From: Deltaproteobacteria bacterium
GTDB lineage: Bacteria; Desulfobacterota; Desulfobulbia; Desulfobulbales; SURF-16
Length of the DNA: 40,817 bases
Reading direction: 5' to 3'
Assembly (NCBI GenBank): GCA_030667965.1
Contig: DAOUUW010000006.1
Coordinates: 1 to 40,817, forward strand
The translations under genes and the position numbers were made by a program. Positions 3 through 23,788 of the stretch are shown here, piece after piece. Position 1 is the stretch's first letter; each line of letters starts with the position of its first letter. Under the pieces are notes generated by a model. The model was not told the DNA's origin and did no database searches. It worked only from the letters and a program-made list of their open reading frames with translations.

Positions 3-794
3 TATAATATCGCCATTGAAAACGGCACCACGGCAACGGATGAAAATGATGATTCCACCCGCCAGAACTTTAGTCTGGGTTGGAATCCGCACAGCAGTTT
101 GTCCTCATCCTTCAGCGCCAGTGAAATCAGGGATGAAAGGGGTGATGATGAAGAGACAATGAGCCGTTCCTATGGTGTCAACACAGCGGTCAATGTTCTG
201 CCAACCCTTGATATGTCCTTTGGCGCAACGAGAAGCGAATCTTATGAGGGGGCTGATAAAACCAGTACCTCCCATAATTTCAACTGGTACACCACCGCGC
301 TTCTCTTCCCGGACCTCACATCCAGTCTTGATCTGGGCTATAACACGAGCCTGGACGAAGAAACGGACCTTGAGACCCGGAGCTTCAACTCTAACCTGCG
401 TTTTACCGCCCGCCTTACCCCCCGCTTTACGGCAGAATTTTCGGAGCAGTACAGCAATAGTCATGCTGAGGACAATTCCTGGTACGCTGCCAGCAGGATG
501 GGTCTTCTGTGGCGTCCCTCGGATATTTTGTCGTTCAACGGTACAGTCTCCAAGGACTGGACGGACGGAGAGGCGAGTGAACTGCTCTATAACGCCAGTG
601 TCTCCCTGGCCCTGACACGCACCATGCAGACGAATTTTAATTATAATCATGCTGAAACATCAGACTCCTACAGCCTGAATTGGAACTGGACGGTGAACAG
701 GGTCTTTTCCGTGCGGGCCGACTGCCGCTATCTGGATGATCAGGAGGGCAGCAGCGGTTTCAGCTGGGGCGGACAGATTACTATGAGGTATTGA
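3..794 (+). CDS. Outer-membrane beta-barrel protein, C-terminal part (5' end truncated by window edge)
   Basis: Frame is open from base 3 to the stop at ~794; alternating hydrophobic/polar strands (e.g. SLDLGYNTSL, RADCRYL) and terminal aromatic ...GGQITMRY typical of OM barrels. Confidence 0.75.
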   Translation, partial: YNIAIENGTTATDENDDSTRQNFSLGWNPHSSLSSSFSASEIRDERGDDEETMSRSYGVNTAVNVLPTLDMSFGATRSESYEGADKTSTSHNFNWYTTALLFPDLTSSLDLGYNTSLDEETDLETRSFNSNLRFTARLTPRFTAEFSEQYSNSHAEDNSWYAASRMGLLWRPSDILSFNGTVSKDWTDGEASELLYNASVSLALTRTMQTNFNYNHAETSDSYSLNWNWTVNRVFSVRADCRYLDDQEGSSGFSWGGQITMRY

Positions 795-1925: not shown

Positions 1926-3410
1926 ATGATCCGAAAATTTACCCTCATTATCCTTTGTGCCTCTGTGCTGATGGCCTCTTCCGCCAGTGCGGTGACCCTT
2001 GCCGTTTTTCCGGTGGAGGATTTGAGCCTGGGACGGAACGGGGTGAATTTTCCTCTGACGGATTTTTTGCGGCAGAATCTCCAGCAGCGGGGCATGGATG
2101 TGATCATGCCGGACAGGCTCATGGCTTTTATGGCTAAAAAACGCATTCGCTGGCTTGGCTTTCTTGACAGTCAATCCATGTATGAGATTCGCGATGAGCT
2201 GGGTGTGGACCTTGTCCTGCTTGGTACGGTAAGCCAGCGCTCGGAGAAGCCGGTTTCCTCACTGGGCATGATTTTGACAGCTGTGCGTACCAGTGATGGC
2301 CGCCATGTCTGGAGTGAATCGGGCGGATTGTGCTGCGCTGATGTATGTAACCTGCTTGCTGTGGGACAGCCGGAAAATGAAGATGATTTGCTCCCCCTTC
2401 TGGCTGAAAGACTGTTGAAAAGCTGGCCCAGGGAAATTCCGATGGGTGGTGAGTCTGTGAGGCTTGCTGTTGCGTCCACAGACCTTTCCCCCCGTCATGT
2501 CCGGCCCGGAGAGAAGGTTCATTGTCGGATTCAGCTGCGCTCTTCCCGGGAAGAGTTGGAGTTGCCCCAGGTGCTTCTTATGGTGGGAGATGATGATTAT
2601 CTTCCCATGCGAGAGGTTCTGTCGGGCATGTATGAAGTTTCATGGCTCGCTCCAAACCGTGACGGTTCCATCCCGGTCAGTCTTGTTCTGGACAATAGTC
2701 AGGGTGACAAGGAGATTATCTATGTGGGCAGTTACGAAGTTGATAACAGCGCTCCGAAACTGCTGTTGAATGTCAAAGGAACAAAACTCTCCAATGGCGT
2801 TGCTTTCAGCCATGATTTGCCGGTTTTTCCCCAGTGGCTGGAACCGGAACCCGTTTCCCGTTGGTCCTTTGTCGCGTATAACAGCCGGGATGAGGTGGTT
2901 GCGGCCAGTGATGGCAAGGGCAACCTTCCCATCCGTATTATCTGGAAAGGTTTACGGGAAAACGGTTATAAGGCCCCTGATGGAACGTATAGTCTTGTGC
3001 TGAAGGTGTGGGACAGGGCGGGAAATGAGTCAGTTGCCGTTGAAAAAGTGCTCCTGCACAGCAGTCCTCCTGCGCCCCTTCTTGTTGTTGAGCCTGCCAT
3101 GAACGGCCTGTTGCTGAGGATGGGAATGGACGGTGAAACCGAAGTCCCTGTCAGCCATTGGTCTGTGGAGGTCTTTTATTCCGATGGCGAGACGCTTCTT
3201 GCCCGCCAGGGAGAGACCCTGCCGGTGGATTTTCGCCTTCCCCTTCCTTCTTCGGAAGAGACAAGAAAGCTTGAGGCCCGGGTGAAAATACAGGACGTGC
3301 TGGGAAACCGTAAACAGCAGAAAATTGATGACCTGACACGTCTTATTAAAACCGAGGTCGAGGCAGAGGAAGAGGAGATCAAGGAAGAATCATGGGTAAC
3401 GGGGTTTTGA
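1926..3410 (+). CDS. Secreted protein with N-terminal CsgG-like domain and later beta-rich (FlgD/Ig-like) region
   Basis: Signal peptide MIRKFTLIILCASVLMASSASA; VTLAVFPVEDLS...GVDLVLLGTV...DGRHVWSES; C-terminal 'PDGTYSLVLKVWDRAGN' FlgD-Ig-like motif. Confidence 0.7.
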   Translation: MIRKFTLIILCASVLMASSASAVTLAVFPVEDLSLGRNGVNFPLTDFLRQNLQQRGMDVIMPDRLMAFMAKKRIRWLGFLDSQSMYEIRDELGVDLVLLGTVSQRSEKPVSSLGMILTAVRTSDGRHVWSESGGLCCADVCNLLAVGQPENEDDLLPLLAERLLKSWPREIPMGGESVRLAVASTDLSPRHVRPGEKVHCRIQLRSSREELELPQVLLMVGDDDYLPMREVLSGMYEVSWLAPNRDGSIPVSLVLDNSQGDKEIIYVGSYEVDNSAPKLLLNVKGTKLSNGVAFSHDLPVFPQWLEPEPVSRWSFVAYNSRDEVVAASDGKGNLPIRIIWKGLRENGYKAPDGTYSLVLKVWDRAGNESVAVEKVLLHSSPPAPLLVVEPAMNGLLLRMGMDGETEVPVSHWSVEVFYSDGETLLARQGETLPVDFRLPLPSSEETRKLEARVKIQDVLGNRKQQKIDDLTRLIKTEVEAEEEEIKEESWVTGF

Positions 3411-4006
3411 TGCGGTATTTATTTTATTTCATGTCGATCATTTTTTCTTTTTGCTGTATGTCATGCACATCGACAAAACCGTCGCTACATACATTCGCTG
3501 CTGTTGAAGCAGATGCATTGTGCCGGACTGCCGTTTTGCCCTTTGTCAACAACAGCCGTTTTGATCAGGGGGAGCTCATTGTCCAGCGTGTTTTTGCAGC
3601 GGAACTTGCCGATTTGCAGGGTGTGGAGGTTGTCGGTGAGGGGGATGTGCGCGCTTTTTACCCAGAGCTGCGTATTTTCCCAAACCAGTTGCCCGATCTT
3701 GATCAGCTCCGCGTGCTGGGCAGCCGGCTTGGCGTGCAATCCATTATCAGCGGCAGGATTGTTGAAATGGAGGAAAGGGGGACTGTAAACAAGGTCAATC
3801 CCCAGATCGCCCTGAGCCTGCAGGTTCATAGCGGGCAAAGCGGCGAAACCATGTGGACCAGCTATTATCGCAGAGAGGGGGAGGATTACCGGACAGTTAT
3901 GCATTATGGACAAATTAATACGGTGACGGAACTGGCCCGTATCATGAGTAATGAAATTCTTGAAAAATGGCTTTCTGAAGGAGTGAGTGGATGCGGCGGG
4001 CAGTAA
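3410..4006 (+). CDS. Putative lipoprotein, paralogue-like to the 948-1559 product (CsgG/GNA1162-like)
   Basis: Lipobox MRYLFYFMSIIFSFCCMSCTS; TAVLPFVNNSRFD...LGVQSIISGRI...LQVHSGQSGETMWTSYYR. ATG at 3410 overlaps upstream TGA (TGATG); ORF track start is 3392. Confidence 0.75.
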   Translation: MRYLFYFMSIIFSFCCMSCTSTKPSLHTFAAVEADALCRTAVLPFVNNSRFDQGELIVQRVFAAELADLQGVEVVGEGDVRAFYPELRIFPNQLPDLDQLRVLGSRLGVQSIISGRIVEMEERGTVNKVNPQIALSLQVHSGQSGETMWTSYYRREGEDYRTVMHYGQINTVTELARIMSNEILEKWLSEGVSGCGGQ

Positions 4007-5619
4007 CAATTTTTGTATGGGCATTTTTTCTTGTTGTTCTCTCACAGGAAAGTCTTTACGCCTGGTTCTGGGGAGATTCCACCCTGGTAACAGTCAATGG
4101 CGAAAAATATACCAGCCGCGATTTTGCTAACTGGTGGCAGAACTGGAAGGAGGAGGGAATTTCTTTTCCAGATACGCCGGATTCCTTTATCGACTGGCAT
4201 CTTCTTGCCCGTGAAGCCGAGCAGATGGAGCTGTATAATGAACCTTCCTACCGCCATAAAATCGATGTCTTTTTAAAAGCGCGCGCCCTGCTGATGTATC
4301 AGGGAGAGAAAATAGGCGCCCGCCTCGATATAAGCGAAAGTGATTTGAAAAATCAGTATGAGGCGAAATATCTGCCCCGTATACTGCTTCACATTCTTTA
4401 TTTTAATGATAAGGAGAAGGCGGAGGCTGCCTATCGGACATTAAGTAGTGAACAGATTGACTTTCCCTCTTTTGCACAGCAGGCTCTGGAGGGGGACGCA
4501 AAATCTGTTTTTTTTGAGGAAAAATGGACGCGTCATGCAAAGCTCAACCAGGAATGGCTTTCTGTTGTAAGCAAACTTCATCCGGGAGAGACTGCCGAAC
4601 CGTTTGCCTGGAGCAAGGGTTATGTCATTCTCCGTCTTCAGGAAGAGAAAGGCGGCGATGATGAGGATTTTGAGTATTTCAGGGAAACAGTGAGCCGGGA
4701 ATTGCGCAAGATCAGGGAAGCGCAACTGACCTTTGAGCTGGTAGAGGAGTTAAAGAAAAAATACAAGGTAACAGTTGACCAGCAGCTTTTTGATGCCATT
4801 GATCCGTTTGGGACAAATGAAAAAATACTTGATGAGCCCTTCATCACCATGGATGATACGGTGTATTCGGTGGGTATTTTCCTGCAGCACCTGCAGAAGG
4901 ACACCAAGTTCCGCAGCAAGTACGGTTACGATGTTGCTGAGGCGGATGCACTCAAAAAGAAAGCGCTGAACGGTGTGTTGGCTCAGACATTGACCACCCG
5001 CGGCGCCGTTGATGAGCATTACGAGGAAAAAGAGCCTTTAAAGCCGCTGTATCAGTTTTATACAAAGCATCGCTTGATCAAGGAGTTGGAAAAACGTCTT
5101 TTCCGGCCAAAGGTTATTGTTTCCGAGGAGGAGATAAAGACCTATTACGAAGATAATCCGGAAAAATTTTCCAGGCCTGCAACGGTCTCCCTGGCTGTAC
5201 TGGAGGACGAAGAAAAGCTGATAGCAAAAATTCACCGTGAATTGATTGGGGGGGGCAATTTCGAGGAGGTTGCCACAACTTATTATTCCGCAGGGGCGCC
5301 GGTCAGGCAGATGGAGTATAAAAGCCTGCATCCGGAGGTAAAAGCCGTGCTCGACGGGATGGTTGCCGGCGATGTCAGTGAACCTTTTTTGGTCAATGGT
5401 CATCACACCATCATTAAACTGGTCAAAAGGGTAGAGACCGTGCCCTTTCCCTTTGATCATGCGCGGGAGCAAATTGTCGGATTACTTGACAGGGAAAAGT
5501 ATGAAAAGGTGCGCAACGCGTATCTCGCCGCTCTCAGGGCAAATTCGGTCATTTCCGTAAATGGTGATGTCTGGCAGAAAATAAGAAAGGAATATGGTGA
5601 TGCTGAGAAAGAAAATTAA
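3991..5619 (+). CDS. Periplasmic peptidyl-prolyl cis-trans isomerase (PpiC/SurA-like, two parvulin-like segments)
   Basis: N-terminal signal sequence; parvulin-like segments ILLHILYFNDKEKAEAAYRTL...GETAEPFAWSKGYVILRLQEE and VSLAVLEDEEKLIAKIHREL...GDVSEPFLVNGHHTIIKLVKRVE. Confidence 0.8.
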   Translation: MRRAVTIFVWAFFLVVLSQESLYAWFWGDSTLVTVNGEKYTSRDFANWWQNWKEEGISFPDTPDSFIDWHLLAREAEQMELYNEPSYRHKIDVFLKARALLMYQGEKIGARLDISESDLKNQYEAKYLPRILLHILYFNDKEKAEAAYRTLSSEQIDFPSFAQQALEGDAKSVFFEEKWTRHAKLNQEWLSVVSKLHPGETAEPFAWSKGYVILRLQEEKGGDDEDFEYFRETVSRELRKIREAQLTFELVEELKKKYKVTVDQQLFDAIDPFGTNEKILDEPFITMDDTVYSVGIFLQHLQKDTKFRSKYGYDVAEADALKKKALNGVLAQTLTTRGAVDEHYEEKEPLKPLYQFYTKHRLIKELEKRLFRPKVIVSEEEIKTYYEDNPEKFSRPATVSLAVLEDEEKLIAKIHRELIGGGNFEEVATTYYSAGAPVRQMEYKSLHPEVKAVLDGMVAGDVSEPFLVNGHHTIIKLVKRVETVPFPFDHAREQIVGLLDREKYEKVRNAYLAALRANSVISVNGDVWQKIRKEYGDAEKEN

Positions 5620-7534
5620 ATTCTGCTTGGGGCTTGCGTTTCTCTCTTTTTTTCTGGTCTCCTGTCTGGCCGGTCAGCCGAGTCGTCAGCCCCGGAAAAA
5701 ATGTGTAGCCTGTCATGAGGAAATGGCGGCGGCCCTGCAGCAGGGAATTGTTCATCAGCCTGTGCAGGAAAATAACTGCGAGGCCTGTCATCTGCACCAC
5801 GGCATGATTGGCGGGGTTTATTTGCGCCAAAATCCGCCTGGGCAATGTTTTTATTGCCATAAGAATATTGCTGCTGACAGTGCCCGTCTGTCCGTACATC
5901 AGCCTGTTAGCAAAGGTCGGTGCCTCACCTGTCATGAAGTGCATAACAGTGACAATGGCGGCCTGTTGAAAACAGCCGGTTCCGAGTTGTGCTTCGGCTG
6001 TCATGACAGCCTGGATTTTACTCGAGCACAGGTGCATGCTCCGCTGCAACAGGGTTGTGATACCTGTCATGTTAATCATGGCTCGGACAATGCCTTTCTG
6101 CTCAAAGAGCAACAGGACAGTCTTTGTTTTTCCTGTCATAAGGCAGATGCTGCTCTGCAGAAAAGTCATTTTGGTTTTATGGCGGATAAAGGATGCATGC
6201 TCTGTCATTCCCCACATAGTTCAGATGGGGCCAATCTTTTGAAAAAGATCGTCCACCAGCCGGTCAATCAAGGGAAATGTGCAAACTGCCACCAGGGTCC
6301 AGTCGATACATTGCAGGTTCCGGTGGATAAGGAGGCAACCTGCCTGACCTGCCACGGCGAAAATCTCCAGCATGAGGTAAAACATCCTCCTGTGGAAAAG
6401 GGGCAGTGTCTGGCCTGTCATGCAGTTCATGCAAGTGATCATCAGGCAATGCTTCATGCAGCACCGAAGGTTGTCTGTGTAACATGTCATTCAGGGGAAA
6501 GCGGTCAAGAAATTAGTGTTCCCCATGCCCCTTTCAAGAAAGGGGATTGTCTGTCCTGCCATTACGGCCACAGTTCAAAAGAGCAATCCCTGCTTGTGAA
6601 AGGTGCAGGCAGGCTGTGCTACGACTGCCACGAAGAAAACCAGTACAGCAGGGGGCGTATCTCCCATCCGCCGGCAGCAGAAGGCAAATGTGTTGACTGT
6701 CATCTTCCCCATGAATCCACTGAGCGCAAACTGCTGGTGAAAAAGGAAAAAGACCTCTGTCTGGCCTGTCATGAAGAGGCGTCCCGGCAAATGGGAAGCT
6801 ATTCGCTTCATACTCCCTTTCTAGCCGGAAATTGCAGTCAATGTCATGAGCCGCACCAGGGTGACAGGAAAAAGTTGCTCAAAGAAAGCGAGAGTCGCGG
6901 TGCACTTTGTCTGACCTGTCATGAAAAGAAATTTAACAGAAAGAGTATGACCACAACCCATGTACCTTTTGTCGAAGGTCGCTGTCAGACATGTCACGCC
7001 CCCCATGCTTCTGATTTTCCATTTAATTTAACAGAACAACCGGGCAAACAATGTCTTTCCTGTCATGGAGCCATTCAGAAAAAAATTGACGGGGTGAAGC
7101 ATGTCCATGCTCCGGCGGCAAAGCTGAACTGCGGTGCATGTCATTCCGCCCATGGATCGGCCCATGAAAAAAATCTGAAGAAAAAGCAACCCGTTCTCTG
7201 TTTGAGCTGCCATCAGGATGTTGCCGTTTACTGGAAAAACGGCGTTGCCCATGCCCCGGCCATAAAAGACTGTACGATCTGCCATGACCACCACGGGTCG
7301 AACAATATGGCCATTGTCAAAAAGAAGGGCGGCGATCTCTGCGCTGATTGCCATAATGTAAATGAGGCACGTTTTACTGCTGTTCACAGCGGCATCCGTC
7401 CTGGGGCGGATTCCTGCTTAGGCTGTCATGATCCCCATGGGGGGCCCGGCAAAGGCCTGCTCTTTCCCGTGGGCCACAGTCCGTTCAGTAAAGGGAACTG
7501 CAGTCCGTGTCATCCCGGGGAGGTAAAGAAATGA
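5600..7534 (+). CDS. Multiheme c-type cytochrome lipoprotein (26 CXXCH motifs, paired-CXXCH repeat type)
   Basis: Lipobox FLVSCLAG; 26 CXXCH motifs counted by eye in ~640 aa; start 5600 favoured over 5594 by spacing from AAGGA. Confidence 0.95.
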   Translation: MLRKKIKFCLGLAFLSFFLVSCLAGQPSRQPRKKCVACHEEMAAALQQGIVHQPVQENNCEACHLHHGMIGGVYLRQNPPGQCFYCHKNIAADSARLSVHQPVSKGRCLTCHEVHNSDNGGLLKTAGSELCFGCHDSLDFTRAQVHAPLQQGCDTCHVNHGSDNAFLLKEQQDSLCFSCHKADAALQKSHFGFMADKGCMLCHSPHSSDGANLLKKIVHQPVNQGKCANCHQGPVDTLQVPVDKEATCLTCHGENLQHEVKHPPVEKGQCLACHAVHASDHQAMLHAAPKVVCVTCHSGESGQEISVPHAPFKKGDCLSCHYGHSSKEQSLLVKGAGRLCYDCHEENQYSRGRISHPPAAEGKCVDCHLPHESTERKLLVKKEKDLCLACHEEASRQMGSYSLHTPFLAGNCSQCHEPHQGDRKKLLKESESRGALCLTCHEKKFNRKSMTTTHVPFVEGRCQTCHAPHASDFPFNLTEQPGKQCLSCHGAIQKKIDGVKHVHAPAAKLNCGACHSAHGSAHEKNLKKKQPVLCLSCHQDVAVYWKNGVAHAPAIKDCTICHDHHGSNNMAIVKKKGGDLCADCHNVNEARFTAVHSGIRPGADSCLGCHDPHGGPGKGLLFPVGHSPFSKGNCSPCHPGEVKK

Positions 7535-8721
7535 TGGTACGTTACCGAAGCCGGTTTTTATTGGTACAGATCGTAATAGTCGGACTTATTCTTGTTCTTC
7601 CAACAGGAGTGTCTGCAGCGTCAACTGTCTGTTTTTCCTGCCATAAAAAAGAAAATTTCACAGATACATATGTGCATCAACCTTTAAAGAAGGGAGAATG
7701 CGGCAGCTGCCATAATCCCCATGTGGCGCATTTCAAGGGCTTGCTGGATGAGAAGGGCGCGGAGCTCTGTTATAAATGCCATCAGGATGCGCAGAAAAAA
7801 TTTGCACAGGACCTGGTGCATCAGCCGGTGCGGCGGGGTGAATGTCTTTCCTGCCATGAGCCACATGCTTCTGGAAGCCGGGGGCTGTTGCGGCATGGGT
7901 TGAAAAGCACATGCTTTTCCTGTCATACAACGCTGCAGGAGAAGTATAAGTATACCCATTCCCCCTATACCAAGGGTCAGTGCTCTTCCTGTCATCGTCC
8001 CCATCAGTCGGAACATGCTTTGCTTCTGAAATTCGAGGGTGAGACTCTTTGTTTTTCCTGCCATCAGGGGGACGCTCTTCGTAAAGGCCATCCGAATTAC
8101 CCGGGCAGGCTGCGGGATTGTCTTTCCTGCCATAATCCCCATGGAAGTAGTAGGAAAGGGATTATAAGGGACGTGCTGCATGCTCCCTATGCAAAGGGAT
8201 GCGGCGATTGCCACGCTAAGGGTAAGAAGCAGGTGGGGACGGAGGTTTGTCTTGGTTGTCATGGTGAGGTGGCTGAAAAAACATTCATGAGCCACACTCA
8301 TCTGAGCGGTAAGGCGGTTAATAAATGCGTTGCCTGTCATTCACCCCATGCTGCTGATGAGAAAACTTTGTTAAAGGGAAGTCAGGCTCAGGTATGTATG
8401 GGCTGCCATGAGGACACACGGGTTCGTTATGAAGACACACTGTATAAACATTCCGGAGCTGAAACCTGCACGGAATGTCATGACGTGCATGGCTCTAACC
8501 TGCTTGTCATGCTGAAGGGCGATGGTAATGGGATTTGTACCCGCTGTCATGAAACCCAGGGAAAGTTTACTCATCCCATTGGCGAAAAAGTGATAGATCC
8601 ACGAACAGGCGGCATGGTGAGTTGTGTTACCTGCCATACCCCCATGGGTTCTGATTATAAATATGAACTGAAGCTGAGCGGGGCCAAGGATCTATGCGTT
8701 CAGTGCCATAAAAGCTATTAG
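7531..8721 (+). CDS. Multiheme c-type cytochrome (16 CXXCH motifs)
   Basis: ATG at 7531 overlaps upstream stop (ATGA); signal peptide; 16 CXXCH counted, many as CXXCHxPH pairs. Confidence 0.95.
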   Translation: MMVRYRSRFLLVQIVIVGLILVLPTGVSAASTVCFSCHKKENFTDTYVHQPLKKGECGSCHNPHVAHFKGLLDEKGAELCYKCHQDAQKKFAQDLVHQPVRRGECLSCHEPHASGSRGLLRHGLKSTCFSCHTTLQEKYKYTHSPYTKGQCSSCHRPHQSEHALLLKFEGETLCFSCHQGDALRKGHPNYPGRLRDCLSCHNPHGSSRKGIIRDVLHAPYAKGCGDCHAKGKKQVGTEVCLGCHGEVAEKTFMSHTHLSGKAVNKCVACHSPHAADEKTLLKGSQAQVCMGCHEDTRVRYEDTLYKHSGAETCTECHDVHGSNLLVMLKGDGNGICTRCHETQGKFTHPIGEKVIDPRTGGMVSCVTCHTPMGSDYKYELKLSGAKDLCVQCHKSY

Positions 8722-8786
8722 GTGAATTTCGGATTTCGGATTTTTGATTTCGGATCTTGGATCGCTGATTCCGGAGTGGAGTGAGT

Positions 8787-9674
8787 ATGAGGCAATTATA
8801 TATATTGACCAAAAAAGCTGTTTTGCTGCTTGCCGTTTTTGCAGGAATGACAACAACAGTCCAGGCGGCCGGTCAGTGGCAGTGGCAGGTGACGCTGGAC
8901 GCCTCCACATCCGGCAAGGCCATGGATATGCCTTCCGCTCTCTACGTGGATGGTGACAAGCAGCGTTACTATGTTGTGGACAGCGGCAATAATCGTCTGC
9001 TTTCCTTTGACAGGGACGGAAAATTTCTCCATGCCTTTACTGCCGAAGGAAGCCTGCAACGTCCCTTTGATATGGTGCGGGATGAAGACGGTATTTTCTG
9101 GGTGGTTGAAAAAGGCAAAAACAGCCTGACTGCTATTGATGTGGCGGCAAAATCGATCACCCCACGCGTGCTGCGCGATGGTGATCATACCATTGTTGCA
9201 GATCGACTGACCCTGGAAAACAATCTTTTTTATGTTCTCGATGCGTCACGTGGCGATATAGCTGTTTTGAATAAAGAGCTTGTCGTGGAAAAATGGTTTT
9301 CATGTGCTGACTGTAGCGGTGGTTTTGTTGATTTTAAGATTGTAAAGGGTACTGTCTGGGCCTTGGATCGATCAGCGAAAAATATCGTTCAACTGGCGGC
9401 AGACGGAAGCCTGAAGTCTTCTTTCTCCGTTGGAGAGCATGCTGCTTTTCCCGTGTCGATGGCCGTCGGTCCGTCCGGTTTTGTTTATGTGCTTGACCGG
9501 CACGAAGGCATTATTGCCGTCTTTGACGCCGGCGGTAGCTATAAGTACAGCTTCCTCTCAGGAGGCCAGATGCGGGGACAGCTTCATTTTCCTGTTGAAA
9601 TTGATTTTGATCCCTGGGGTCGGCTTTGTGTTGTGGAAGAGGGAAATTCCAGGGTGGAAGTTTTCGGTCGCTAG
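8787..9674 (+). CDS. Secreted NHL/six-bladed beta-propeller repeat protein
   Basis: Signal peptide LTKKAVLLLAVFAGMTTTVQA; repeats YVVDSGNNRLLSFDRDGKFL, VYVLDRHEGIIAVFDAGGSY, LCVVEEGNSRVEVF. Confidence 0.85.
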   Translation: MRQLYILTKKAVLLLAVFAGMTTTVQAAGQWQWQVTLDASTSGKAMDMPSALYVDGDKQRYYVVDSGNNRLLSFDRDGKFLHAFTAEGSLQRPFDMVRDEDGIFWVVEKGKNSLTAIDVAAKSITPRVLRDGDHTIVADRLTLENNLFYVLDASRGDIAVLNKELVVEKWFSCADCSGGFVDFKIVKGTVWALDRSAKNIVQLAADGSLKSSFSVGEHAAFPVSMAVGPSGFVYVLDRHEGIIAVFDAGGSYKYSFLSGGQMRGQLHFPVEIDFDPWGRLCVVEEGNSRVEVFGR

Positions 9675-9683
9675 AAAGGAGAG

Positions 9684-10784
9684 ATGACCATGCAATCTGC
9701 TAATAAAATCATCAGCCTTGCTGCACTGTCGATTTTTTGCGTCCCAGGTATATGTGATGCAAAGGTCACAGGCCATTGCGGTAGCTGCCATACCATGCAT
9801 AACAGCCAGGGGGGGCAGGGAGTGGTTGATAATTTGGTATTAGGGGTCATGGATAATAACCTGGATACTCCAAATCCCGCACTTCTCATAAGTAACTGTG
9901 CCGGTTGTCATACCGGATCTAACGGTGGTGGTGCCAACGTTACACCGTATGTTTTTACTATCAGTGAACCAGAATACGGCACAACGGGTACGATAGATGT
10001 TACTTATAGTAATAATACCTTGGCTGGAGGGAATTTCTACTGGGTAACTGTGGGGGATGCCAAGGTACATAATGTGGCCAGTATTGCCGGAGTTGACGGG
10101 ACTTTAGGGGTAACCCCACCAGGGGCCACCGATGGAGTTACATTTATCTCCCAACTCACCTGTGCAAGCAGTACCGGGTGCCATGGAGTTCGTTCTGATT
10201 CAAGTCTCGGCGAAGTTGAATCCATGCTTGGAGCGCATCATAATAACAATATGGCAGTGTGGAAGGATGGAACGACTCTTGCCAAAAGTTATCGTTTTCT
10301 CAATACCATTCAGGGCTATGAGGATGACGAGTTCGAGTACCAGCCTACATCAACACGGCATAATGTGTATTACGGTGTTGCAAGAAACTCTGTGGCAGAT
10401 TCTGCCGGAACTATCAGCAGTTTATGTGCACAATGTCATGGCGATTTTCATAATGGAAGCAATAACGTTATCCCAGGTACTAACACATTTGGAGATGGTG
10501 TGTGGCTGCGTCATCCGACTGACTTTGACATGTTAGACGCCACAACCAGCTCTGAGTATTCCGCTTATACAACATACAGTGTCATTTCTCCTGTCGCGAC
10601 GGAAAATTCTGCGATGGTCTCTTCATTTTCCTCTATTGCAGTTGCGGGTGATGCCATTGTCACTTGTCTTTCCTGCCATCGAGCCCATGGTACTCCCAAT
10701 GATGCGATTTTACGCTGGGATTATAAAGGTTGGCCTACTGCTGGTTATAACGGCTGTGCGGTCTGTCATACCTCAAAAGATTGA
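9684..10784 (+). CDS. OmcS-like hexaheme c-type cytochrome candidate (5 CXXCH + 1 CX5CH)
   Basis: Signal peptide; HCGSCHTMHNS, CAGCH, CASSTGCH, CAQCHGDFHN...LRHP, CLSCHRAH and C-terminal CAVCHTSKD in the same order as remembered OmcS motifs. Confidence 0.85.
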   Translation: MTMQSANKIISLAALSIFCVPGICDAKVTGHCGSCHTMHNSQGGQGVVDNLVLGVMDNNLDTPNPALLISNCAGCHTGSNGGGANVTPYVFTISEPEYGTTGTIDVTYSNNTLAGGNFYWVTVGDAKVHNVASIAGVDGTLGVTPPGATDGVTFISQLTCASSTGCHGVRSDSSLGEVESMLGAHHNNNMAVWKDGTTLAKSYRFLNTIQGYEDDEFEYQPTSTRHNVYYGVARNSVADSAGTISSLCAQCHGDFHNGSNNVIPGTNTFGDGVWLRHPTDFDMLDATTSSEYSAYTTYSVISPVATENSAMVSSFSSIAVAGDAIVTCLSCHRAHGTPNDAILRWDYKGWPTAGYNGCAVCHTSKD

Positions 10785-10931: not shown

Positions 10932-12365
10932 ATGAAAAAAATTATACATTTTTCCCATTCTTTTCTCTCTCTCTTTCTCCTCCTCGTTTTTACCGGCTGT
11001 GTTCCCGGAGGTCCTGCCGGTGGTGACTCATTGACCCTTTTTAAATTCCAGGAAACAGGCGGTGAGGCAAGGCTGTCGGTTTTTATGAACCTGAAAGAGC
11101 CTTCAGGGCCGTCAATATGGATGGAAATCGATGAGGTGGAAGTGCTGACCGGCGAGAGGTGGCTGCCGATTGGTACGGCAAGAAAGGAGATCAGTAGCAA
11201 AGAGCTTGGCGCGTCCGGCCAGTTGCTTGTTGCCCGGGGAGGAGTTGATGCAGGCAGTATCAAGCGGCTGCGCCTGAAAATAAATAAGGCGGCCCTTGAG
11301 CGGGACGGGCAGAAAATCTTCCTGGCCCTTGATACCCCTGTCCTGGAAATGGCACTGGCTGATGAATTGACCTTGCGTAAAGGAGAGAGCGCCTGCCTCT
11401 TTATTAGGTGGGATACCTCCTCTTCGGTGCGCAACGTCGCCCTGTTTGCCCCTCAGATGGCTGTTGACCGGCAGTCCATTCCGCTGACAACGGATCTGGC
11501 CTATGTGGCCTGCCCTGATATAGACACCGTCTATATCATCAGAACCGATCAGAACAGGGTGTGCGGCTCCATCGGCGTAAGCGGCGGACCAACGTGCCTT
11601 GAGGTGAATGTGGCCCGCAACAGGCTTTATGTCCTTTCTCCGGGGGAGTCTTCCATTGCGATACTGGAATTAACCTCAAATCGCGCCCTGGACAATGTCC
11701 GTATTCCCCACGTCCAGCAGGCAACATACATGGCTGTCAGTCCGGATGGCGAGTGGGCCTATATCCTTGATGAGCGGGGTGATCAGTTGCTGCGCCTCAA
11801 TCTCGTCACCGGTGTTCTTGCCGACACTGTTCGTCTTGGCTCAAGGCCCAGGTTTATTACCTATCTTGCCAAAGAAAACCTGTTGGCCGTGTCAAGCGCC
11901 TATGCCCAGAAGGTTGTTTTTCTTGACCCGCATACCTTGGCCACGGTGCAAACCATTGCCACAGGCGGCAGTCCGGATGGTCTAGCCGTGGCGGACAACC
12001 TGATCTATATCGCAGAAAGAACAACCAATACGGTGGCCATTTATGATACGATCAGCGGCAGGAGCAGGGCGAGAGTCAATGTGGGCATCATGCCGACAAG
12101 ATTGATTTCCGGCAATAATAATATGTATCTGGCAAATTCAGGTTCCGGCACCATATCGATTTTACGTCCGGGCCAGCTCAATGTTCTGCGTGAGATCCGG
12201 CTGGGCGGCAGGCCGTATGAGATGGCAGTCTATTCTGACCGTCAGTGGTTGTATGTCGGAGACCAGGAGGGTAGGGGCGTAAGTGTTATCGATCTTTCGT
12301 CGAACAGGGTTGTGCGGACAATCGAGCTTGCCGCCCAAACAAGTGGTCTGGCTCTGGTCAACTGA
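10932..12365 (+). CDS. YVTN/YncE-like beta-propeller lipoprotein
   Basis: Lipobox FLLLVFTGCVPGG; repeats DTVYIIRTDQNRVCGSIGVSGGP, GEWAYILDERGDQLLRLNLVTG, NLIYIAERTTNTVAIYDTISG, WLYVGDQEGRGVSVIDLSSNRVV. Confidence 0.85.
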   Translation: MKKIIHFSHSFLSLFLLLVFTGCVPGGPAGGDSLTLFKFQETGGEARLSVFMNLKEPSGPSIWMEIDEVEVLTGERWLPIGTARKEISSKELGASGQLLVARGGVDAGSIKRLRLKINKAALERDGQKIFLALDTPVLEMALADELTLRKGESACLFIRWDTSSSVRNVALFAPQMAVDRQSIPLTTDLAYVACPDIDTVYIIRTDQNRVCGSIGVSGGPTCLEVNVARNRLYVLSPGESSIAILELTSNRALDNVRIPHVQQATYMAVSPDGEWAYILDERGDQLLRLNLVTGVLADTVRLGSRPRFITYLAKENLLAVSSAYAQKVVFLDPHTLATVQTIATGGSPDGLAVADNLIYIAERTTNTVAIYDTISGRSRARVNVGIMPTRLISGNNNMYLANSGSGTISILRPGQLNVLREIRLGGRPYEMAVYSDRQWLYVGDQEGRGVSVIDLSSNRVVRTIELAAQTSGLALVN

Positions 12366-14205
12366 TCGGCAGTTCAATCGTCACCGTGGTGTGGTCATCG
12401 ACTTTGCTGTCCACGGCAATATAGCCATGATGCATATGCATCAATTCACGGCTGACAGTGAGTCCCATGCCCACTCCTTCAGAGGAGGGTTTGGTGGAGA
12501 ATGATGGTTCAAAGACTCTTGGTAGATCATCAGGGGCTATCCCCACACCGTGATCGGTAAATGTCATGCGTAACATTTTCTGACCGTCTTTTCCAATGGT
12601 TTCAGCCTTGATTTCCAGTATCTTCTGTTTATTTTTCTGGCGGAAGCGTTCATTCAATGCCCGGCGGGCATTGTTGAGCACATTGAGGAAAACCTGCTGC
12701 ATCTGTCTTCCGTTTGCCTTGCATAAAGGGATGGCGTCAAGATCGGTTTGAACCGTGGTTCCATCAATTCTGAAATAGTGGCTCATGAGGGCAAGGGCAT
12801 TTTGCAGTATGTCGTCAACTTTGGCAATTTCTTTTGTTTTTGCATCATCCTGGCCGTAGGCAAGAAGGTTTTTGGCCAATCCAGCAATTTTTTCACCTTC
12901 TATAATAATTTTGTGAAACATTTTGTCCCGTTCAAGCTCGAAATCGGGATCGCAGGCGCCATCGGCAAGCACCTGGGCATAGTTGATGATCCCGTTGCTC
13001 ATGTTCCCTATTTCGTGGGCAACGCCGGTTGACATTTCTCCAAGAATTGCCAGATGTGATACGCGAACCATTTCTACTTTTTTGTTTTTTTCCTCCAGCA
13101 AATCATGTTCCAGGGTGTCAATTCTTTCAACTTCAGCCGTAATGTCAAATCCAAGGCAATATATTGATGAAGGCTGATGTTCAGCGGGATTTACGATAAA
13201 GCGACAACGCAGCCGAGGCTTGGAGATTTCGTTGTTTGTGTACAGTGTGACATCAATGGTTTTTCCCGCCAGCAGGAGAATATCCAGTACGGTTTGATCT
13301 TCAGGTGATTCGGAAACAGATTGAGGTATGATAAAAAGCTCGAGCCAGTTTCTACCTATGAGGTCTTCCCTGTTAAAGCCATATTTTTCAGCAATGTGGC
13401 CATTGATATTCAGTATTGTTCCATCCCTGGAGATTTTAGCCCATATGCCGTTAAAAGAATCGATGACACTTGCAGCAGCATTTTGATATGTCTGTTGATG
13501 GTCGCGCAAAATTCTTCGCTGTTCAAGGAGGTCGGCAATAGAAGCTGTCACTCTTGATATTTCTCTTGATGGGCTCGCTATTTCAATGGTGTCAATTGGG
13601 GAGGATACGGCCAGGGAGCTTTTCTGAATGAGGTCCAGCAGGGGGATAATCATCCTGCGATGGAAAAGAGCAAGAACAATCACAAGTAAAAAAACGATAA
13701 GGCAGGAAGAACCGATAATAATATTTTGAAAACCGATTAATTTCTGTTTGGCATTGTTGACCAGCACGCGATCGAAAAGAATAAGACGTTCGCCCAGGGT
13801 ACGCATTTCCTGGTTAAGGTTGCGGAAGTTTTCAGTATCAGAATTTCCTCCTTCAATTTTTTTCAGCAGGAGGATGATTCCGGGAAGGTCTATTGAATTT
13901 AAAAAGGTAAGTTTGTATTCGTCGCCAATAGAGTTGTTGGAAAGAATTGTGGTAAGATTACTATTCAACTTCTCCATTTCGGTGGAAATACCTGAAAGAT
14001 TGGACTGATGGGGATCTATAAGGGACTCGGAAACCTGCTCCCTGATGATGGAAAATTGAAAAATGAGGCTTTCCGTCTGGGAAATAATGGCTTCATGTTC
14101 CTGGTAGAGCTGGTTCTGGCGCACACCTTGCATGAGTAATGCCCCCAATGCAATCAGAACAATCAGGTAAATTGAGTAAATTGTCGATTTAATTGGAAGC
14201 ATCAT
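12358..14205 (-). CDS. Membrane PAS-domain sensor histidine kinase
   Basis: N-terminal TM, second TM IIIGSSCLIVFLLVIVLALF, PAS NINGHIAEKYGFNREDLIGRNW, H-box GVAHEIGNMSNGIINYAQ, HATPase FTDHGVGIAPDDLPRVFEPSFSTK...GVGMGLTVS. Confidence 0.92.
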   Translation of the reverse strand: MMLPIKSTIYSIYLIVLIALGALLMQGVRQNQLYQEHEAIISQTESLIFQFSIIREQVSESLIDPHQSNLSGISTEMEKLNSNLTTILSNNSIGDEYKLTFLNSIDLPGIILLLKKIEGGNSDTENFRNLNQEMRTLGERLILFDRVLVNNAKQKLIGFQNIIIGSSCLIVFLLVIVLALFHRRMIIPLLDLIQKSSLAVSSPIDTIEIASPSREISRVTASIADLLEQRRILRDHQQTYQNAAASVIDSFNGIWAKISRDGTILNINGHIAEKYGFNREDLIGRNWLELFIIPQSVSESPEDQTVLDILLLAGKTIDVTLYTNNEISKPRLRCRFIVNPAEHQPSSIYCLGFDITAEVERIDTLEHDLLEEKNKKVEMVRVSHLAILGEMSTGVAHEIGNMSNGIINYAQVLADGACDPDFELERDKMFHKIIIEGEKIAGLAKNLLAYGQDDAKTKEIAKVDDILQNALALMSHYFRIDGTTVQTDLDAIPLCKANGRQMQQVFLNVLNNARRALNERFRQKNKQKILEIKAETIGKDGQKMLRMTFTDHGVGIAPDDLPRVFEPSFSTKPSSEGVGMGLTVSRELMHMHHGYIAVDSKVDDHTTVTIELPIS

Positions 14206-14273: not shown

Positions 14274-15530
14274 CTATTTCCTTTCACCACGCCATGTGTA
14301 GACGATCGGAATACGATAGAGTACCGCCCGGTAGACGACGATATACGTAAAGTAGACCATAATCGCGATGCAGAATTCCCTCCAGTGAGGAATGTCCTGA
14401 TACATTTCCCAGTTGTAGGTTATCAGCACAGTGTTCATTCGGTTTAAGGCTATGCCGAATACGGCAAACATTGCTGCAAACCGTGCCAGACCGGCCCGGT
14501 CAGTGCGTATGGCCATGGTGAAGAAAGCAAGCGGGATAAGAGTACCGACGATCATCTCAAAGAAAAACCACATGCCCCAACCGTCAAGCAGGTAGCTCCA
14601 TTCGTTGTCATGGGCAATGGCAGTTATCTTGAGGACAAGATAGGTGATGAGGGCCATGGAGCAGCCTTTACCGAGGCCAATGGTGATTCTGTCAAGATTT
14701 TTCAGGAAATTGTCATCGCAGCGCCAGCTCATGAACCATTTGGTCAGTGCACTGACCACAATCAGCATGGAAAGACCGCCGAAAATGGAGGAGCAGAAAA
14801 AAAGGATCCATTGAAAAGCAGTTGAAATCCATAGCGGATGCAGTTTATGGGGCGCGTAGGTAAAAAGCGACCCCAGCGCACCCTGATGCAGGGTGGAAAG
14901 AATAATACCGGCTACAGTCAGGCCAAGGACGATGCTTTTGACGAATTTTTTCGGTTTCACCCAACCCATCAGCTCGCTTGTCGCCGGAACGAGCTCGGCA
15001 ATCTGCACGGTGAGATAGGTGGCAACATGCCAGGCAACCAGAAAGAGAACGGCGGCGGGTCCGAGGGAGACAAACATCGGGTAGACGAGGCGCCATGGCT
15101 GGCCAAGATCGACTTCAAGAAACACGACTGCAAAGAAATAGCCGAGGAGACCGTTTAACAGGCCAAGTCTTTCAATGGGTTTGAAATCTTTGCGACCGAA
15201 AAGTTCAACCGTCGTGCCAAGCATGAAACCGGAGGCGGAAAGGGGAACCATGACAAATAGGCCCCAGCCAAGAAAAAGGCCCCAGGGATAGTCGTAGGAG
15301 CCGTGGGTTGCCCAGCCGAGACCAAAAAAGAAGCGGCCGAGGAGCAGCGGAATACCAACTGCATAAACTACAGCAAGAAACCAGTTAAAGGGGTTGCGAA
15401 GCAGCTGCTTCATATAGTCCTGGGGACTGAGGCCGAGAAGGAGCTTTTCTTTCACCGTCCAGGGGTTGTTTGTATTTGGTTTTATTAGAGTGTCAATGGG
15501 CTCATAGCCCTCTTGTGCGAGTTTTTTCAT
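14274..15530 (-). CDS. NrfD/PsrC-like quinone-interacting membrane subunit (CbcU-like)
   Basis: Multi-TM protein with NrfD-type segments (NPFNWFLAVVYAVGIPLLLGRFFFGLG; FGRKDFKPIERLGLLNGLLGYFFAVVFLEVDLGQPWR), next to an FeS subunit. Confidence 0.85.
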   Translation of the reverse strand: MKKLAQEGYEPIDTLIKPNTNNPWTVKEKLLLGLSPQDYMKQLLRNPFNWFLAVVYAVGIPLLLGRFFFGLGWATHGSYDYPWGLFLGWGLFVMVPLSASGFMLGTTVELFGRKDFKPIERLGLLNGLLGYFFAVVFLEVDLGQPWRLVYPMFVSLGPAAVLFLVAWHVATYLTVQIAELVPATSELMGWVKPKKFVKSIVLGLTVAGIILSTLHQGALGSLFTYAPHKLHPLWISTAFQWILFFCSSIFGGLSMLIVVSALTKWFMSWRCDDNFLKNLDRITIGLGKGCSMALITYLVLKITAIAHDNEWSYLLDGWGMWFFFEMIVGTLIPLAFFTMAIRTDRAGLARFAAMFAVFGIALNRMNTVLITYNWEMYQDIPHWREFCIAIMVYFTYIVVYRAVLYRIPIVYTWRGERK

Positions 15531-15542
15531 TTCATCACCCTC

Positions 15543-16466
15543 CTATGCCTTGTTGGATTCATCTGTTTTTGCTTTTCGTGTCGCCAGAAGATGGAATCCG
15601 GTGAACAAAGCCGGCCAGATTATCAGAACCATTGGAACCATTGCCAGGAAGTCCTTGACATAGCTGATAATCGGGGCATTTCCCACGTGCATATTAAAGC
15701 CTATTTCCTCAAATGGAACATCTGAAATATACATCCAGGACGTTCCACCCACCTCTTTTTCGCCATAGACATGGTCGATGTATTTTCCGCCACTTTCTTC
15801 AATTTTAGTGTGTGCTTGAGCAACAAGGTCTTTACGTTTGCCAAATGTCATGACGCCCTGGGGACAGGCCTCAACACATGCCGGTGGACGTCCGAATTTA
15901 AGCCGGGTGTCGTAGCACATGATGCATTTTTTGATAATTGGGTTAATGGCGCTTGAGAAGCTGTATGCCGGAATATAGAAGGGGCAGGCAATCATGCAGG
16001 TACGGCAGCCGACGCATACCTTGGGATTGTATATAACAGCGCCTTCGGGTGTTTTGGTATATGCATTAACAAAGCAGGATGTCAGACATCCCGGCTCCTG
16101 GCAATGGTTGCACTGTACTTTTCTGAAGAAAGGACTTTCTCGTCCTTCAACTTCGTAGCGGTTGACAACCGTGTACGCTTTCTCAGTGGTGCGTGGTTTT
16201 TCTCCGCCGTGACCATGCTGGTCAAAGAAGCTGTAGTCGTCAAATGGGATGTCTGGTTCAGGAAGTCCCTGTTCTACATTGCATGCTGCCTCACATGTGC
16301 GGCATCCTATGCATTTTGTCATGTCAACAAGCACCCCCATACTATCCGGGTAGCCGCCGAATGTGCCGCCCGCTGCATCGGCCTTAGTGGCTTTGCCTGT
16401 TGCCGCTGCAGCAAGTCCGCCTGCCAGGCTTCCCTTTATAAAATTTCTGCGGTTTAATTTTTTCAT
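15543..16466 (-). CDS. TAT-exported 4x[4Fe-4S] ferredoxin-type subunit with C-terminal TM (HybA/CbcT-like)
   Basis: Tat motif NRRNFIKGSLAGG; CIGCRTCEAACN, CNHCQEPGCLTSC, CVGCRTCMIACPF, CIMCYDTR...CVEACPQ; TM near C-terminus. Confidence 0.9.
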   Translation of the reverse strand: MKKLNRRNFIKGSLAGGLAAAATGKATKADAAGGTFGGYPDSMGVLVDMTKCIGCRTCEAACNVEQGLPEPDIPFDDYSFFDQHGHGGEKPRTTEKAYTVVNRYEVEGRESPFFRKVQCNHCQEPGCLTSCFVNAYTKTPEGAVIYNPKVCVGCRTCMIACPFYIPAYSFSSAINPIIKKCIMCYDTRLKFGRPPACVEACPQGVMTFGKRKDLVAQAHTKIEESGGKYIDHVYGEKEVGGTSWMYISDVPFEEIGFNMHVGNAPIISYVKDFLAMVPMVLIIWPALFTGFHLLATRKAKTDESNKA

Positions 16467-16508
16467 TCATTTCACCTATATTATTTTGAACTTATTGTTT
16501 GACTGATT

Positions 16509-17030
16509 TTAGTGATGCCCTGAAGCCTTGCCCGGGGCAGGGGCGTATTTACCTGTCCTGTAGAATTTTTCGCCTTTGTCCGTCATTGCGTGGCAATCAA
16601 CGCATCCGTCAGGAGCACCGACTTCCTTGTGGCAGGTGAGACAGTTCAGGTGGTAGACTGCTTTCAGTCCGGGTTTGGCCTTGTGATGCAAGCGGGGCGT
16701 GTTGTAGCTTTTTTCAAGATTAGCGGCAGAAAACGGTTCTGCTGCATGGCAGTCGCTGCACAATGGTGATTCGGCCTCTCCGCTGTTCATGTGACAGGGG
16801 ATGCAGTTCGGATCTTCGGGAGGTGTGCCCGCAGTGTGGTGGTGACATGTGGTGCAGTTTTCAGATGTTGCTTCAATATGCATGTCGTGGTCAAAACTGA
16901 CCCCCTCATATAAACTGCTCAGTCTGTTCAGCTCGAGCACCTGGCCACCGACGGTCATCGGCAGTGAAAGAGGGACCGCCATGGCTAGTATTGCCGCGAG
17001 GCCTATAATTTTCCCTTTTTTAAAACCCAT
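16509..17030 (-). CDS. Cytochrome c3-family pentaheme protein (5 CXXCH; CbcS-like position)
   Basis: Signal peptide; CTTCH, CIPCH, CSDCH, CLTCH, CVDCH; 'VSFDHDMHIEATSENCTTCHHH' typical of class III cytochromes. Confidence 0.9.
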   Translation of the reverse strand: MGFKKGKIIGLAAILAMAVPLSLPMTVGGQVLELNRLSSLYEGVSFDHDMHIEATSENCTTCHHHTAGTPPEDPNCIPCHMNSGEAESPLCSDCHAAEPFSAANLEKSYNTPRLHHKAKPGLKAVYHLNCLTCHKEVGAPDGCVDCHAMTDKGEKFYRTGKYAPAPGKASGHH

Positions 17031-19669: not shown

Positions 19670-21481
19670 TTATGAGCTGATCTCCAGCAGCGATGTGTCA
19701 ATGTCGAGCTGCCTGATTTTACGATAGAGCGTACTCCTGTCAATGCCCAGAATACGGGCTGCCTGGGCTTTGTTGCCGTAGGTCAGTTTTAATGTGTTGA
19801 GAATACGTTCTTCTTCGCTTTCGTTCCCGCTCGCTTCGACAAAGATTGCTTCTTCTGCCCGGGTTGTTTCAAGGGCTTTCTGGTCCTGAATTTCCAGAGG
19901 AAGATTTGCCAGGGTGATTGTTACTCCGGAGCAGAGAACACAGGCTCTTTCAATGACATGCTCAAGTTCCCTGACATTGCCGGGCCACTGATACTTGATG
20001 AGCTGGCCCAGGGCCTGATCTGAAATGCCTTGGATTGATTTGTCCAGACGCTTGCTGAAGCGTCCTATGAATTTTTTGACCAGCAGGTGGATGTCATCAT
20101 ATCGTTCCCGCAGGGGCGGCAGGATTATATCCACAACCTTAAGGCGATAGTAAAGATCTTCCCTGAAACTTCCGGCAACGACCAGGGCTTTCAGATCGGC
20201 ATTGGTGGCTGCAACAACTCGTACATCAACTTTTATCGGCCGGTCTTCTCCTACCGGATAGAAAGTCCGTTCCTGCAGGAAACGCAGGAGGCGAAGCTGC
20301 ATCATGGGTGAAATGTCACCAATTTCATCAAGAAAAAGAGTGCCTCCGTCAGCTTGGAGAATTCGTCCCTGACGGTCGCGGTCGGCCCCGGTAAATGAAC
20401 CTTTTTTGTGGCCGAATAACTCGCTTTCCAGCAGATTTTCAGGTATGGCCGTACAATCAACCTTGATGTGAGGCATGTCTCTTCTCGGACTCTCAAGATG
20501 AAGTGCCTCAGCAACAAGCTCCTTGCCTGTTCCGCTCTCGCCGGTAATGAGGACGGTGGTGTCGACCTTGCCCACGTTTTCGATCAGGGTGTAAACGGTC
20601 TGCATGGGTCTGCTGTTGCCGATCAGTCTGTGCAGGCCAGTCCGTTTATCACGTTGCTCCAGGGCTTCCAGGCGGCTCACGTCCCTTGCTATAAGGACAA
20701 CACCAAGAAAATGTCCGTCAGAGGTCAGTAGTGGAGCTGCACTGATTCTGAAAACCGTGACGCCGGATCCTTCAAGCTCAAATTCAACCCGGTGTTCGGC
20801 CACTTCGCATTCTTCCTGCAGCACCGTCTGGGCGTCAAAGGCAAAAATCTCGGAAAAACAGGGGAGTTCGTCAATTCTTCTCCCCCGGGCAATGTTGTCC
20901 GGGTTGAATTTTTCCTGCCATTTACGGGCCTCATTGTTCATGTCAGTGACCATCATTTCAGCGTCAACCGTCACGACAAGATCCTTGATGCTGCGGAACA
21001 CTGTTTCCAGGTATTGCTGATAACGGTCTTTCTCAAGGGTTAACAGTTCATTCTCTTTGTGCAAAGAGTATTGTTGCAGAGCCATGCGGGCAGTACGCAA
21101 CAGGTTGTCTTTTTTTACCGGCTTGGCCAGATAATCAAAGGCACCGAGGCGCACGGCTTCAGCGGCGGAATTAATATTGGGATAGCCGGTGACCATGACC
21201 ATTGGGCATTTCAGGCCCATTTCTCTTACCTGGCGCAAAAGATCAATGCCGGATGAACCCTCCATAACAATATCACTGACAATGAGATCGAAATTCTTAT
21301 TTTCCAACAGATCCAGCGCCTCTTCATAGGAGGATGCTGCGGAAACAGGTCCATAGCCGGCTCTGGTGAGAAACATTTTAAATGTAAGCCGCAGGCTTTC
21401 CTCGTCATCTACGACAAGAATGGGATGCTTTGTTTCTTTGATTTCGTCAGTTTTTTCTTCTTCGTTATTGCTGTCTATCAT
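19670..21481 (-). CDS. Sigma-54-dependent response regulator (REC-PAS-AAA-Fis HTH)
   Basis: REC ILVVDDEESLRLTF...LIVSDIVMEGSSG; AAA+ GESGTGKELVAEALH, GAFTGA-type motif KGSFTGADRD; HTH GNKAQAARILGIDRSTLYRKI. Confidence 0.95.
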   Translation of the reverse strand: MIDSNNEEEKTDEIKETKHPILVVDDEESLRLTFKMFLTRAGYGPVSAASSYEEALDLLENKNFDLIVSDIVMEGSSGIDLLRQVREMGLKCPMVMVTGYPNINSAAEAVRLGAFDYLAKPVKKDNLLRTARMALQQYSLHKENELLTLEKDRYQQYLETVFRSIKDLVVTVDAEMMVTDMNNEARKWQEKFNPDNIARGRRIDELPCFSEIFAFDAQTVLQEECEVAEHRVEFELEGSGVTVFRISAAPLLTSDGHFLGVVLIARDVSRLEALEQRDKRTGLHRLIGNSRPMQTVYTLIENVGKVDTTVLITGESGTGKELVAEALHLESPRRDMPHIKVDCTAIPENLLESELFGHKKGSFTGADRDRQGRILQADGGTLFLDEIGDISPMMQLRLLRFLQERTFYPVGEDRPIKVDVRVVAATNADLKALVVAGSFREDLYYRLKVVDIILPPLRERYDDIHLLVKKFIGRFSKRLDKSIQGISDQALGQLIKYQWPGNVRELEHVIERACVLCSGVTITLANLPLEIQDQKALETTRAEEAIFVEASGNESEEERILNTLKLTYGNKAQAARILGIDRSTLYRKIRQLDIDTSLLEISS

Positions 21482-23550: not shown

Positions 23551-23788
23551 TTTCGGGCCTTTTAGAGAAGCAAGTTAGTGGTGAGAAAAATTTGGGGATT
23601 TGTATTATTTTTATTACATCGAACGTAATTAAGCAATAATTTTGCCAAAAAGAGGCAAATTGGCTCCCCGCTTTTTTTGCAGGAGTTAGTGAAAAGAAAA
23701 ATTTACCGCAAAAAAAAATCAGGGGAGGGTGTTTTGGAGAGGACTTGATTCCCAGGGTGATTAAAGGGAGAGAAGAGGTAAACAACGA

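Follow-up and report, generated by a model that had tools for sequence, protein, structure and literature searches.

OmcS of Geobacter, which forms electrically conducting filaments, and the genes around it are well described. In the OmcS filament, one ligand of heme505 is supplied by the neighbouring subunit (Filman 2019, PMC6584659). In DALI and Foldseek searches, OmcS and OmcE were reported to match only themselves and close homologs (PMC9473688). Among the Osc proteins, OscH has been assigned to folding, OscE-G to secretion, and OscD to morphology (Shen et al. 2025, as cited in PMC13194489). An operon with 16- and 26-heme cytochromes, a peptidyl-prolyl isomerase (PPIase) and a six-bladed propeller was described in seep sulfate reducers (Skennerton 2017, PMC5539420). 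An oetABI cassette with an OmcS-like protein and the 6-heme Apc2a was described in syntrophic sulfate reducers, for which OmcS-like filaments were proposed (Murali 2023, PMC10553843). The system is already known, and the idea of OmcS-like filaments in such relatives is not new. Whether cells need OmcS filaments physiologically is disputed (PMC11077965).

The window, by which we mean the whole 40,817-nucleotide stretch of DNA analysed here, from a sulfur-cycle bacterium of the Desulfobulbales, encodes a multiheme cytochrome that a first-pass annotation had proposed to be an OmcS-like filament subunit. The gene is one open reading frame of 366 amino acids, with exactly the coordinates first noted. 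It is not a chance frame, since the genome collection yielded 477 encoded relatives; the best 80 of these 477 were analysed further. An alternative in-frame ATG at 9690 has a better Shine-Dalgarno spacing (AAGGAGAGatgaccATG, 8 nt after GGAG), and on this sequence evidence it is the likelier start than the ATG at 9684. As read from the sequence, the protein carries a secretion signal and no lipid anchor; the AlphaFold2 model places a hydrophobic helix at residues 4-18 of the signal peptide. Direct reading of the protein sequence found no lipobox, as the first-pass annotation had stated. Of the Pfam and NCBIfam models, only a generic doubled-CXXCH domain reached its curated cut-off. The features of the gene are as follows.

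9684-10784, forward strand: OmcS-family multiheme cytochrome c, five CxxCH and one CX5CH, secreted, without lipobox (sequence, profiles, fold search)
9684-9761, forward strand: signal peptide, approximately residues 1-26, ...CVPGICDA/KVTGHC (sequence reading)
9777-9812, forward strand: heme site 1, CGSCHTMHNSQG, including His39 in the OmcS His16 column (presumed inter-subunit ligand; alignments)
10161-10184, forward strand: heme site 3, CASSTGCH, of the non-canonical form CX5CH; the motif does not vary within the clade, and AlphaFold2 predicts a beta-hairpin here
10236-10241, forward strand: His185-His186 pair, invariant in the clade of the window protein and absent from the OmcS clade (alignments)

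A single-sequence phmmer search of the PDB with the window protein did not reach OmcS. The same genome encodes three more full-length paralogues (contigs C98, C169 and C55). A profile built from the four in-genome sequences matched OmcS (6EF8) with E=1.2e-15, and a profile built from 73 homologues did so with E=8.8e-27. With the latter profile the match to OmcE was marginal (E=0.009), and no chain of the octaheme OmcZ appeared at E<=0.1 (A2). We confirmed that our OmcS reference sequence is identical to the PDB chain. Aligned with hhalign, the clade of the window protein and the OmcS clade matched over their full length with 100% probability. In a tree of 123 rows, the OmcS clade comprises 37 rows and the window protein falls in another clade of 86 rows; the split has a support of 100, and the branches are long. 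Relatives occur in 41 of 58 near genomes and in 57 of 297 genomes across the phylum. Judged by these alignments and profiles, the window protein is a member of the OmcS superfamily and belongs to a deep sister clade. The label "OmcS-like" thus stands as a statement of homology, through profiles, full-length hhalign, a weak fold match and synteny, but the protein falls outside the OmcS clade and, given also its CX5CH site, is not an OmcS orthologue.

The motifs of the window cytochrome are C32GSCH, C72AGCH, C160ASSTGCH, C248AQCH, C328LSCH and C358AVCH. Those of OmcS are, in order, ECEGCHTMHNS, CLNCH, CSSCH, CANCHTDIHN..LRHP, CLSCHRAH and CNKCHAKD. Checked against the OmcS PDB sequence, the parallel order claimed earlier is correct. 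Of the six sites claimed, five are CxxCH; the "third site", left unnamed in the first-pass annotation, is CX5CH and not CxxCH. There are 15 histidines, of which six lie within heme motifs, leaving the nine additional ones that had been counted. Across 73 homologs there is no variation at H39, H129, H185, H186, H256, H277 or H335; H226 is kept in more than 90% of them, and H31 is not conserved. H39, H129, H277 and H335 are common to the window clade and OmcS. H185, H186, H226 and H256 are invariant or nearly so in the window clade, whereas they are rare or absent in OmcS rows. The inter-subunit ligand of heme505 in OmcS is, we presume, His16; the window protein has a histidine in this column (H39), as do 63 of 63 main-clade rows. 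The N-terminal H2 of OmcS has no counterpart in the window protein. Which histidine would ligate which heme we infer.

Site 3 is CX5CH in all 79 loci long enough to show it (among the best 80 of 477), and likewise in all 84 CX5 rows of the tree set. OmcS relatives have CxSCH[DN]PH at this site, and OmcS itself has CSSCH. The homologous site varies in a sister subfamily typified by the paralogue on contig C55: among 20 members we counted CX2CH in five, CX3CH in nine, CX5CH in two and CX6CH in four, with C..CH retained in every one. Site 3 is likely a true heme site, because its homologue in the sister subfamily drifts into the canonical CX2CH. In the sequences compared, this variation from CX2CH to CX6CH is the best argument for heme binding at site 3. 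In the host genome, a ResB gene lies next to one for a CcsA-type protein, a pair that indicates System II cytochrome c maturation. System II can handle some non-canonical heme motifs, so CX5CH does not conflict with the host's machinery. The term CX5CH was not found in 5.39 million open papers, searched under that one spelling, and the main texts of PMC5539420 and PMC10553843, as searched, do not mention such a site.

Members of the C55-type subfamily (L128-L157; own copy L004:1423-2553) have seven CXnCH motifs, with an additional CxxCH directly before the conserved HH and after the variable site 3. One alignment (A3) placed this extra CQGCH on site 3; three hhalign modes put the CXnCH there, and these were trusted more. 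The paralogue on contig C169 (L093:10584-11882) has an extra CX4CH (CSATSCH) ahead of heme 4.

An AlphaFold2 model from 73 rows had a pLDDT of 77, and Foldseek returned no hit at all for it. A second model, from 114 rows that included OmcS-clade members, had a pLDDT of 85.4 and a pTM of 0.85. For this model, OmcS was the sole PDB match at E<=0.001 (2.2e-6), with TM scores of 0.44 and 0.40 and an rmsd of 11 Å; the match is not independent of sequence because OmcS-clade sequences were in the alignment. A common fold with OmcS is weakly supported by these models. The fold check proposed with the original claim gave no unrelated fold and OmcS as the only significant match, but the agreement is weak.

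The cytochrome gene lies in a cluster of genes of the osc type. The other members in the window are listed below.

3-794, forward strand: outer-membrane beta-barrel protein, C-terminal part (OscD/porin position); the N-terminal part is on contig C98
948-1559, forward strand: LpoB-like lipoprotein, osc cluster homologue
1926-3410, forward strand: 494-aa secreted protein, homologue of an osc-cluster gene of Geobacter-type genomes
3392-4006, forward strand: 204-aa FlgT_M-like lipoprotein
3991-5619, forward strand: periplasmic peptidyl-prolyl isomerase, PpiC type, OscH position
5594-7534, forward strand: 26-CxxCH cytochrome, lipobox FLVSC
7507-8721, forward strand: 16-CxxCH cytochrome
8781-9674, forward strand: NHL six-bladed beta-propeller, ending 9 bp upstream of the cytochrome gene
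10932-12365, forward strand: YVTN beta-propeller lipoprotein

The end of contig C98 and the start of the window overlap by 429 bp with 96.5% identity. The joined order is an OmcS-like gene (C98), beta-barrel, lipoprotein, 494-aa protein, 204-aa protein, PPIase, 26-heme and 16-heme cytochromes, NHL, window cytochrome and YVTN, and a genome of the same genus (G001) has the identical order, uninterrupted. The osc/oet gene set of beta-barrel, lipoproteins, PPIase, 26-heme and 16-heme cytochromes and propellers is thus present in order. Its genes run co-linear with those of the osc operon in a Geobacter-type, OmcS-encoding genome (72% OmcS identity); matches to that operon have E values of 1e-112 for the 26-heme cytochrome, 6e-76 for the 16-heme cytochrome, 1e-16 for the lipoprotein and 3e-8 for NHL. 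Among the best 80 of 477 relatives, 75 loci have NHL, 26-heme or 16-heme neighbours. Where enough upstream sequence was available (71 of these 80 loci), the 16-heme and 26-heme genes lie upstream on the same strand in 50 and NHL in 48. Clusters often contain two OmcS-family genes approximately 12 kb apart.

Beside the cluster, the reverse strand at 14274-17030 encodes a cytochrome with five CxxCH together with inner-membrane subunits resembling HmcC and HmcB; as a set, these are a possible link from quinone to periplasm. Genes for two histidine kinases and for two regulators of the sigma-54 type (12358-14205 and 19670-25561, reverse strand) also adjoin the cluster and possibly control it. Contig C98, which precedes the window, encodes two adjacent 12-CxxCH cytochromes (L092:2067-3938), which could be the 11/12-heme OmcX-related pair of seep sulfate reducers. 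A defence-library scan found nothing.

We consider it rather probable that the window gene encodes a secreted OmcS-superfamily cytochrome of an osc/oet-type nanowire cluster, with six hemes and polymerising through His39. The PPIase, lipoproteins and beta-barrel would aid its export. Six bis-His hemes would be bound, the third through CX5CH. Subunits would assemble head to tail, with His39 ligating heme 5 of the next subunit, and electrons would move along the filament between donors or acceptors outside the cell and a conduit of the 26-heme cytochrome, beta-barrel and 16-heme cytochrome. Both polymerisation and conduction by the window cytochrome we infer. Chances seem even that this large sister clade, which spans Desulfobulbales, Thermodesulfobacteria, Desulfuromonadia and some Nitrospirota, assembles nanowires whose third heme is attached through a strictly conserved CX5CH and has a relocated distal ligand, H185/H186. 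In the adjacent seven-motif subfamily the Cys-Cys spacing at this site drifts from CX2 to CX6.

Site 3 could also be read as a disulfide. Here C160 and C166 would be joined across a beta-hairpin, OmcS heme 3 would be lost, and H167 would serve as a distal ligand like OmcS H147; such a pentaheme may still polymerise. Both AlphaFold2 models place site 3 in a hairpin (158-161/165-168, block pLDDT approximately 95 at 161-170) and not in a helical turn, where most canonical CxxCH motifs of the protein lie, and this prediction makes a pentaheme possible. A gapless alignment of CSSCHDPHG with CASSTGCHG also sets H167 on OmcS H147, but hhalign pairs CH with CH. The disulfide would further leave the near-invariant H185, H186, H226 and H256 without a role, and AlphaFold2 is blind to heme and has scant precedent for CX5CH. 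This reading was preferred at first; we now rank it second and think it unlikely, because the sister subfamily varies from CX2 to CX6 at the homologous site, with CX2CH and CX3CH among its forms.

The hexaheme filament subunit that we favour must also be weighed against a protein that does not polymerise, an adaptor or cap joining a filament of the upstream paralogue on contig C98 to the 26/16-heme conduit. The gene sits downstream, after NHL, and many clusters hold two OmcS-family genes. OmcS-clade genes after or near NHL in Geobacter-type genomes (L108:2717-4024, L109:16122-17198 and equivalents) lack the His16 equivalent and may not polymerise; since it was lost there, a gene at this position is not necessarily a filament former. 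The adaptor or cap is a live rival for this reason, but we give it little probability: the window clade keeps the histidine, with H39 in the window protein and in 73 of 73 aligned homologues. It is highly improbable, in our view, that the protein is an ordinary electron shuttle, soluble in the periplasm or outside the cell, resembling OmcS through heme packing alone. The curated family match, which is generic, fits a shuttle, but full-length profile homology and the co-linear assembly genes speak against it.

If the favoured reading is true, OmcS-type filaments are not confined to Geobacter: sulfur-cycle bacteria have a deeply separated sister branch of them that uses the same assembly genes. 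A predicted conducting filament would then include, always at the same position, a heme attached through the non-canonical spacing CX5CH. The window cytochrome is a concrete target for cryoEM and offers a test of the need for heme 3 in a continuous heme chain.

Compared with OmcS of Geobacter sulfurreducens (6EF8/6NEF), the window protein has the same six-site order, and CHTMHNS, GHN, LRHP and CLSCHRAH are found in both. Both lack a lipid anchor and both have a co-linear osc cluster. The identity is approximately 25-27%, in a separate deep clade. Site 3 is CSSCHDPHG in OmcS and CX5CH here, so that the six CxxCH of OmcS proper are replaced by five plus one CX5CH. The window protein is without the N-terminal H2 and has the extra invariant HH185/186 and H226; its side has CHTTKD at the C-terminus, unlike OmcS. 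What sets the window protein apart from OmcS is its place in a deep sister clade, in which the third heme motif is non-canonical and conserved. OmcE (7TFS) shares a CHTPHN-type first site, but it is a tetraheme protein of 232 aa without a full-length match. The osc operon and the window cluster both have a beta-barrel, lipoproteins, PPIase, 26- and 15/16-heme cytochromes, and NHL and YVTN propellers; here the 26-heme protein has a lipobox and the cluster is flanked at both ends by an OmcS-family gene. Its core is the 26/16-heme cassette that Skennerton 2017 (PMC5539420) described, and the oet cassette that Murali 2023 reported from related bacteria is apparently the same one.
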